Origin: Burkholderiales bacterium
GTDB lineage: Bacteria; Pseudomonadota; Gammaproteobacteria; Burkholderiales; Burkholderiaceae_C
NCBI GenBank assembly: GCA_947458895.1
Contig: CANHBY010000005.1
Coordinates: forward strand, 1-13,694
Reading direction: 5' to 3'
Length of the DNA stretch: 13,694 nucleotides
The notes below the pieces were generated by a model, which saw only the letters and a program-made list of their open reading frames with translations, had not been told where the DNA came from and ran no database searches. Of the stretch, positions 9,229 to 10,267 are shown in pieces. The first letter of the stretch is position 1; the number at the start of each line of letters is the position of its first letter. Position numbers and translations under genes: made by a program.

Positions 9229-9621
9229 ATGAATTACTTCAAGCCGATGCTGTCGTCAGTTCTGGTGGTCCTTTCACTTTCAGCTTGCGCTGACCGAGCC
9301 TCAGACCTGGAAGGAAAATGGGTCATTGATTTGGAAGCCACATTGCAAAACATGGGCAAACTCGGTACCCCGCCCGGTGATCTCGAAGACATGAGAAAGA
9401 GTTTTGAAGGGGGGCGGCTCTACATCACACCCCAAGAAGTGAAACTCTCCGTTGCTGGCCGACCTGAACAGGTGAGCCTGCCCTATAAATACGTGGGCCA
9501 GGCCAGCACATGCTTCAACCTGGAAATCAAATCTCAGGTCCACAGCTACTGCGTGAGCAATGGATCCTTGGAGGTCCATGACCCCACCACCAAACTCGTC
9601 GTGGTGTATTCGCGCAAATAA
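9229..9621 (+). CDS. Small putative lipoprotein, function unknown
   Basis: This is a 130-aa exported protein that I do not recognise. Residues 1-20 form a lipoprotein signal with lipobox LSAC, giving C20 as the lipidated cysteine. The +2 residue is Ala, which predicts outer-membrane sorting if the Lol rule applies. The mature part opens DLEGKWVIDLEATLQNMGK, a pattern seen in lipocalin-like or small beta-barrel lipoproteins. It continues with alternating hydrophobic residues suggesting beta strands (RLYITPQEVKLSV, KLVVVYSRK). C105 and C118 or nearby cysteines (STCFNLE, HSYCVSN) could form a disulphide. ATG 9229 follows GAGTGAGGT. It stands alone: a gene-poor stretch lies upstream and a convergent tRNA gene downstream. 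Confidence 0.78.
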   Translation: MNYFKPMLSSVLVVLSLSACADRASDLEGKWVIDLEATLQNMGKLGTPPGDLEDMRKSFEGGRLYITPQEVKLSVAGRPEQVSLPYKYVGQASTCFNLEIKSQVHSYCVSNGSLEVHDPTTKLVVVYSRK

Positions 9622-9654
9622 AAAGGCCGCGAATCAATGGCTGATGCGCGGCCT
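9617..9654 (-). terminator. Terminator of the tRNA-Leu transcript
   Basis: On the minus strand AGGCCGCG (9654-9647) pairs with CGCGGCCT (9631-9624). Inner pairs ATCA/TGAT extend the stem to about 12 bp with one mismatch. TTTTTATTT follows, so it is a strong intrinsic terminator 23 bp beyond the tRNA CCA end. Its T-run overlaps the TAA stop of the convergent lipoprotein gene. On the plus strand the stem has no T-run. Confidence 0.82.
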
Positions 9655-9676: not shown

Positions 9677-10018
9677 TGGTGCCCCGGGCCGGAATCGAAC
9701 CGGCACGCCCTTTTTCAAGAAGCGGCGGATTTTCTTACCCGCTACGGCTTTAGCCGCCATCAAGCACGCTGGGCGTTTTTGATGTTTGGGGTCTGGAGCG
9801 CGCCTTGGCCGTGGTGCTTTTTAAAGGCACGTTAGGTCTCCACCGTCCGCTCTCTACACCTTCCTGCTGACTGCTCAGGCTTGGCTCGGCGTTGCCTCGG
9901 TGATGTACTCAGCCACCAGGGGTTTCGCCGACTTTGATGGAATTCACACCAACCGTTTCCGTGCTGGGTGCTCAAATTTGTTTAAGTCCGATGTGTCTAC
10001 CAATTTCACCACCGGGGC
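9677..10018 (-). tRNA. tRNA-Leu(UAA), split by a group I intron
   Basis: The 5' exon is 10018-9984 (35 nt), ending in C32-U33-U34. The 3' exon is 9733-9677 (57 nt), starting with A35-A36 and ending with an encoded CCA. Joined, they give a 92-nt tRNA with anticodon UAA. The acceptor stem is perfect: GCCCCGG with CCGGGGC. The T-arm is GCCGG-TTCGATT-CCGGC. The D-arm contains the conserved AATTGGTAGAC of leucine tRNAs. A long class II variable arm (CGCTT/GGGCG) is as expected for leucine. The anticodon stem has four good pairs and a U-C at 27-43. Discriminator base A73 (9680) is the leucine identity base. No other gene overlaps it; a long plus-strand open frame across this region is not protein-like. 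It terminates at the hairpin ending near 9617. Confidence 0.92.
9734..9983 (-). ncRNA. Self-splicing group I intron (IC3-like) in the tRNA-Leu(UAA) anticodon
   Basis: The intron is 250 nt, between U34 and A35, and ends in G9734 (omega-G). Helices fold by hand; numbers are intron positions (position n = coordinate 9984-n). P1: exon CUU plus AAA (1-3) pairs with UUUGAG (8-13), giving the required U-G at the splice site. P2: 14-21/31-37. P3: UUCCAUC (42-48)/GGUGGAG (140-146). P4: UCGGCG (53-58)/CGCCGA (93-98). P6: GCC/GGU and CCUG/CAGG. P7: GAGCG (132-136)/CGCUC (184-188), the guanosine site. P8: 154-161/164-170. P9: CAUCAA (200-205)/UUGAUG (221-226). P9.1: CGGC/GCCG. The core resembles the ~249-nt Anabaena tRNA-Leu intron as I remember it. 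There is no internal ORF, so no homing endonuclease. Confidence 0.93.
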
Positions 10019-10043: not shown

Positions 10044-10267
10044 GCGTGTTTCCAGCCAGGGCCTGTTCGGAAAGTCGTTGTCGGGCAGAAAATGGTCTAT
10101 TGGAGTGAGCTGCAAGGCGCAAAGCACAGCACTACCAGTAGGAAGCACAGCAATACCAGTAGGTATTGCGAGCATTTGCAACGCCGCAGATCACTTCAAG
10201 AGACCGTTTTATGCTTGGCAAGGACTTTCCGAACAGGCCCTAATCAGTTCATTCGTTGGAAACACGC
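10044..10267. repeat. Outer inverted repeat around the foldback element
   Basis: GCGTGTTTCCA (10044-10054) is the exact reverse complement of TGGAAACACGC (10257-10267). The pair brackets the 184-bp foldback element, 3 bp outside its left end and 15 bp outside its right end. It could mark the true ends of a 224-bp element or be a separate palindrome split by insertion. Confidence 0.5.
10058..10241. mobile_element. 184-bp foldback (MITE-like) element
   Basis: The terminal inverted repeats start AGGGCCTGTTCGGAAAGTC (19 bp perfect). They continue ungapped to 56 bp, with 47 of 56 positions identical between the left arm (10058-10113) and the reverse complement of the right arm (10241-10186). The centre holds a 21-bp unit repeated twice in tandem (10122-10142 and 10143-10163) with one mismatch. 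It also holds an 8-bp palindrome, GCAATACC-AGTA-GGTATTGC (10150-10169). There is no coding capacity, so any movement would need a transposase in trans. I see no clear target-site duplication. I cannot name the parent IS family. Position: between the asd 3' end and the tRNA-Leu promoter. Confidence 0.75.

Follow-up and report, generated by a model that had tools for sequence, protein, structure and literature searches.

A tRNA-Leu(UAA) gene split by a small group I intron in a Burkholderiales genome, and related introns in other bacteria and in phages

The interrupted gene and its surroundings

The window, that is, the whole stretch of 13,694 nucleotides analysed here (positions 1 to 13,694 of contig CANHBY010000005.1, assembly GCA_947458895.1, from a Burkholderiales bacterium), carries on its minus strand, at 10018-9677, a tRNA-Leu(UAA) gene in which a 250-nt insert separates U34 from A35 (Table 1). 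An earlier note, made from the letters alone, had described two tRNA halves 250 nt apart that join into a leucine tRNA with anticodon UAA, and an insert between U34 and A35 that ends in G; both descriptions are exact to the base, and the joined halves are called tRNA-Leu(taa) by ARAGORN. The joined tRNA has 92 nt and pairs at 7/7 positions of the acceptor stem, 5/5 of the T stem and 4/5 of the anticodon stem. Removal of the insert restores an empty tRNA site, as judged against an uninterrupted tRNA-Leu(UAA) gene of a confamilial genome (G234), whose 5' half and anticodon arm are identical to those of the joined tRNA and whose variable arm differs. The single anticodon-stem mismatch, U27 x C43, is also present in that uninterrupted gene and is therefore a trait of the lineage, not decay. 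The insert lies at U34/A35 of tRNA-Leu(UAA), the insertion site of the cyanobacterial tRNA-Leu(UAA) intron.

Table 1. Features of the interrupted tRNA-Leu(UAA) locus (positions in the window)
Feature	Position	Strand	Evidence and remarks
5' exon of tRNA-Leu(UAA), G1 to U34, 35 nt	9984..10018	-	Ends C32-U33-U34; same 5' half in the uninterrupted G234 gene
Group I intron, 250 nt, last base G (9734)	9734..9983	-	Sequence reading, alignment, covariation, model R1
3' exon of tRNA-Leu(UAA), A35 to encoded CCA, 57 nt	9677..9733	-	Sequence reading
Internal guide sequence UUUGAG	9971..9976	-	GAG pairs with exon C32-U33-U34, with U34.G at the splice site; U.G in 49/49 rows
Catalytic core, P3-P8 and P7	9792..9943	-	Match to model R1, 118.8 bits, E 5.6e-27, window excluded from the model
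P7 5' strand GAGCG (guanosine-binding helix)	9848..9852	-	Pairs with 9796-9800; two-sided changes in 3/5 pairs
P7 3' strand CGCUC	9796..9800	-	Pairs with 9848-9852; covariation
Terminator-like hairpin downstream of the tRNA	9620..9653	-	7-bp GC stem (9625-9631 / 9647-9653), 15-nt loop, then a U run; by eye

The hairpin downstream of the gene is absent from the list of a terminator scan, whose allowed loop length its loop exceeds, and a simple scan of the window found no sigma-70-like promoter. A 184-bp element with 56-nt inverted arms, 84% complementary, lies 39 nt upstream of the tRNA (10058-10241) and is matched at 16 other places in the same genome with E below 1e-26; this MITE-like repeat might hold the tRNA promoter or interfere with it. 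UUA codons are used by the host, with 6 among the 3724 codons of 12 ORFs in the window.

The expectation that annotation tools would miss the tRNA was borne out: the default ARAGORN scan reports none in the window. An intron-aware search, suggested in the earlier note as a check, does call a tRNA at the locus, but as tRNA-Phe and with the splice point misplaced. The interrupted gene escaped default ARAGORN and Rfam wherever they were tried, so that the genomes concerned look as if they had no tRNA-Leu(UAA).

Group I architecture of the insert

A further check proposed there, a search with the Rfam group I model RF00028, counts against the insert at the curated threshold: the model spans the insert over its full length at 18.5 bits, below its curated cut-off of 50, and neither Rfam at the curated cut-off in the window nor RF00028 in the window's own genome gave a match. 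The same threshold is reached by 0/20 relatives (18 introns in tRNA-Leu(UAA) and two in tRNA-Leu(CAA)); it serves for detection and does not define the group. Because of this low score, relatives were aligned and a structure and model of our own were made. The alignment has 49 rows, namely the window and 48 relatives, thinned to <88% identity from 113 introns of <=252 nt, and a 53-pair group I structure was drawn by hand on one row (L058). Under this structure 94.5% of 2593 cells are paired, a share that leans towards the drawing because it was made on L058; shifting the structure by 1-3 columns leaves only 31-46% paired. Two-sided changes occur in 33/53 pairs, compared with 18.9 +- 1.6 in shuffled alignments, none of 500 of which reaches 33. 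The fold claimed earlier, with P1-P9, a 5-bp P7 and a U-G at the splice site, is upheld by this covariation, which supports P1 with its U.G pair, P2-P9 and P7 (GAGCG/CGCUC). P7 is paired in 49/49 rows, as GAGCA/UGCUC, GACUA/UAGUC, GAGCG/CGCUC (the window and one more row) and five further forms; the exon-guide U.G pair at the 5' splice site is found in every row, the window included, and the terminal G is an invariant column. The insert thus has the core expected of a group I intron, P3-P8 / P4-P6 with P3 and P7 in a pseudoknot.

A covariance model of the core, R1, was built from 42 of the 48 relatives (four long and two wrongly trimmed rows were left out) and finds the window, which it had not seen, far above chance; this match is the only such core detected in the host genome assembly. 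Thermodynamic folding speaks against the structure, the folding z-score of the whole pre-tRNA being only -2.2 and its minimum-energy fold not recovering the core.

Features of subgroup IC3 include a GAAA L2, an 11-nt receptor in P8 and small peripheral domains. By eye, L2 is GAAA in the window and P8 has the variant CCUAAC...CACGG where some relatives have CCUAAG...UAUGG, and the L9 loop is UAAA as against GAAA in most rows. The insert has no stop-free run above 53 codons. That the insert is spliced by proteins (of the archaeal, bulge-helix-bulge type), or is some other kind of insert, is highly improbable: its place in the anticodon loop is the one point in favour of such a reading, and both the absence of longer stop-free runs and a P3-P8 core, covarying P7 and guide pairing that are those of group I introns speak against it.

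We therefore hold, with high confidence, that the locus is a functional tRNA-Leu(UAA) gene split at U34/A35 by a small group I ribozyme that has no ORF and belongs with the tRNA introns of bacteria (IC3-like); splicing, a need for guanosine and a role of the locus as sole reader of UUA are predicted. Counting against this reading are the low RF00028 score, the UAAA L9 loop, the lack of a sigma-70-like promoter in the simple scan and the intact copies found in some intron genomes (see below). By analogy with established group I chemistry, the pre-tRNA would fold so that the guide GAG pairs with C32-U33-U34, a guanosine bound in P7 would attack after U34, the freed U34 would attack after the terminal G, and ligation of the halves would create the UAA anticodon of a tRNA reading UUA. 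The UUU of the guide (UUUGAG, 9976-9971) pairs with the first intron bases AAA, and could later pair with the AAA of the 3' exon as P10.

Occurrence in bacteria and in phages

Among 399 sampled Burkholderiales genomes, 63 have R1 matches, in 26 of which the flanks are tRNA-Leu(UAA). Of the 399 genomes, 314 match a strict pattern for an intact tRNA-Leu(UAA), namely 4/26 genomes with the intron and 310/373 others; a match is thus lacking in 22/26 compared with 63/373 (Fisher p 1e-12). By the pattern used, the interrupted gene is the only recognisable tRNA-Leu(UAA) in these 22 genomes, some of which may hide a divergent copy, since the pattern misses 63/373 genomes without the intron. In two genomes (G352 C21:30724 and G350 C17:1759113) the interrupted gene has a neighbour, no more than about 200 nt away, that resembles a tRNA-Leu(UAA) without an insert; this neighbour has AAAATCT in place of the AAAATCC of the interrupted gene.

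These counts bear on whether the window's insert is a decayed remnant that no longer splices, the tRNA being dead and another tRNA-Leu(UAA) doing the work, which we consider very unlikely. An intact copy does accompany the intron in four of the 26 genomes, truncated copies exist on two Cupriavidus plasmids (see below), and a second copy could be unseen in the host genome, which is 66% complete. Against this, no intact copy was seen by the pattern in the other 22, and the window preserves the helices of the core, the U.G at the splice site, the G at the intron end and both exons, the exons matching the intact G234 relative in the 5' half and anticodon arm. The earlier note had named a second, intact gene as a sign of a dead remnant; none was seen in the window's genome, of which only those 66% could be covered.

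Wider searches extend the range. In a phylum-wide draw, R1 matches occur in 39/398 genomes; among 24 of these loci inspected, eight are Leu(taa) by ARAGORN (six of them outside the window's class) and eight more read GACTT/...G/AAAAT by eye. A pattern scan of named genomes gave at least 118 stretches, at least 112 of which parse as a complete interrupted tRNA-Leu(UAA). The remaining six among the 118 listed comprise four that run off the stored stretch (L100, L107, L148 and L159) and two false matches, in Arenibacter (L087) and Rickettsiales (L150), which are intact tRNAs with a chance match downstream and were dropped. The 112 listed belong to Betaproteobacteria (77), Gammaproteobacteria (22) and unclassified Pseudomonadota (nine), with one each in Alphaproteobacteria, Bdellovibrionia and Desulfobulbia and one without rank; the three singletons, on contigs of 3 to 10 kb and two of them in MAGs, may be contamination. 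Altogether 135 units were parsed and joined at U34/A35, giving 134 Leu(UAA) and one Leu(CAA) at the same site, by a parser that sought only this site and an encoded CCA. A locus read as two tandem introns (L245) was reinterpreted as one long intron.

Plasmids also carry the element. Blast matched 15 plasmid records, from Mycetohabitans, Ca. Vallotia and Cupriavidus, and of five examined three are complete (Mycetohabitans, Ca. Vallotia) and two truncated (Cupriavidus). In the insect symbionts Ca. Vallotia (L025, L112), the interrupted tRNA-Leu(UAA) sits on a 61-66 kb plasmid. Both Cupriavidus plasmids (L023, L026) have the 5' tRNA half and intron up to about P3/P8, where the match stops, which might reflect the insertion of an element at that point or the duplication of one end.

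Contigs of IMG/VR were scanned twice, with a pattern that includes a Leu-like exon and with the core alone, which gave at least 131 loci with the core, at least 89 of them a tRNA-Leu(UAA) split at U34/A35. Among these 89 listed, 88 joined tRNAs are called Leu(taa), 30 loci are distinct at under 90% identity, and 58 lack an encoded CCA, a count that allows no comparison with bacteria because the bacterial parser required CCA. Among the 131 listed, 42 are not Leu(UAA) at U34/A35 by the parser. Seven viral loci resemble host sequence of Achromobacter or Burkholderia and could be the edges of proviruses. A viral scan for cyanobacterial introns found none. A third scan added 102 new loci, of which at least 24 are interrupted, six are cut by the end of the stretch and 72 are unparsed; 24 is a floor because, among eight unparsed loci inspected, three (L404, L408, L418) show the core, the other five having no core in the stretch (four are an uninterrupted tRNA-Leu). 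The notion of an isolated case therefore had to be given up, the same insert being found at the same site in 26/399 Burkholderiales genomes, at least 112 named stretches and at least 89 viral loci.

Individual phage genomes bear the same arrangement. The isolate Agrobacterium phage Atu_ph07 (490 kb) has a 278-nt intron at U34/A35, at a place where its annotation shows no tRNA. LR756501 (735,411 bp), a record without annotation, has one of 205 nt at the same site. In LR756511 (595 kb) the intron measures 700 nt and contains an ORF that matches HNH endonucleases (Pfam HNH at 26.3 bits, cut-off 21.4; phrog_10822 at E 1.2e-46). In L382 the HNH ORF inside the phage tRNA-Leu(UAA) intron (1567-2136) has as its stop codon the TAG of the conserved GGTGTAGAGA, and two further viral introns have HNH-like ORFs by eye (L432, L459). 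Other phage genes resemble tRNA-Lys(UUU) with the anticodon loop split by the same core (L251, L253, L257, L258, L281 and L383, partly by eye). A marine phage match (L263) was rejected as a tRNA intron, its core sitting between two capsid CDS, and a capsid annotation of Pelagibacter phage HTVC120P (MH598807.1, near 19653-19807) covers the same core; cores at the capsid genes of two marine phages suggest a common lineage for introns of tRNA genes and of protein genes. A statement in a 2014 review places the phage introns then known all in protein genes, despite the many phage tRNAs (PMC3984707), and a 2017 paper puts forward, as the first phage case, a tRNA-Stop interrupted by about 2.5 kb that, according to its authors, may be an artefact (PMC5746245).

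Origin and significance of the intron

Comparable introns occur in the same and in other tRNAs. The cyanobacterial intron, for example that of Anabaena, resembles the window's in its tRNA gene, presumably in its site, in its similar length and in being a small ribozyme, and differs in host and core letters. Introns in tRNA-Arg(CCU), known from alphaproteobacteria, were also met among R1 matches; they are found by the same core model and lie in the anticodon loop like the window's, in another tRNA and at another site. The Azoarcus-type tRNA-Ile(CAU) intron of betaproteobacteria has a related core that R1 also finds and a GAAA-type P2 loop (by eye), yet it interrupts another tRNA, at U36/A37 instead of U34/A35. 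A second family in tRNA-Ile2(CAU) of Burkholderiales (L226-L241) is inserted at U33/C34 (by eye, 11 viewed) and scores 70-80 bits with R1 in six tested; its P8 is short and the 5' hairpin of several members carries a CCUAAG/UAUGG-like receptor motif, so the tetraloop receptor may have moved. Introns with the same core were also seen in tRNA-Leu(CAA) at C34/A35, with C, not U, before the splice site (L047, L189, L207), in tRNA-Ser(UGA) at U34/G35 (L195, L205, L208) and in tRNA-Thr(UGU) (L222, L225).

In the literature, the Anabaena intron is given as 250 nt (PMC2729099, Table 1), PMC8450103 mentions tRNA-Ile2 introns in Acidovorax and Burkholderia, and, according to PMC4033280, cyanobacteria and alpha- and betaproteobacteria have group I introns in tRNA genes. 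Similar by description are the putative group I introns in tRNA-Leu-TAA of the Gammaproteobacteria Ca. Maribeggiatoa (BOGUAY) and Ca. Thiomargarita nelsonii (PMC4853749), which share with the window's the tRNA gene, a proteobacterial host and their absence from annotation, but belong to another class and have their structure and type left undetermined in that account. Our search found no report of a Leu(UAA) intron in Burkholderiales or in a phage tRNA-Leu, which is weak evidence of absence as most subscription journals lay outside it, and no printed intron sequence. The kind of intron was thus already known; its range is unexpectedly wide and it is apparently unannotated.

The shared site, shared core and patchy spread favour lateral transfer over independent choice of the site. 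Transfer from cyanobacteria, as opposed to an origin in phages or in other proteobacterial tRNA introns that changed their target, is unlikely: the cyanobacterial intron interrupts the same gene, as does that of Beggiatoaceae (PMC4853749), but the window core is only 53% identical to the one cyanobacterial comparator (a provisional sequence, and a long branch in the tree) compared with at most 74% to other Leu(UAA) introns of proteobacteria, 56-63% to nine tRNA-Ile(CAU) introns and 49-65% to three Ser(UGA) introns. Phage versions are abundant. The phylogeny proposed in the earlier note was carried as far as trees of the core, which left out rows that failed core cutting; with 134-143 columns most of their forks are unsupported and they resolve neither route nor source, so that these points together decide nothing.

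A phage version with an HNH ORF is a possible vehicle. More broadly, and tentatively, since we rate it at somewhat under an even chance, phages may be both vehicle and reservoir: homing into an intronless tRNA-Leu(UAA) in the course of infection or lysogeny, with the endonuclease lost afterwards, would leave scattered ORF-less introns, which cells could no longer do without where the sole tRNA that reads UUA contains one.

In 22/399 sampled Burkholderiales genomes the UUA-reading tRNA is seen, by the pattern used, only as a ribozyme-interrupted gene. Copies of the intron in phages, some of which contain an HNH ORF, offer a testable route by which ORF-less tRNA introns could move between lineages, and the same route could bear on the much older tRNA intron of cyanobacteria and plastids.
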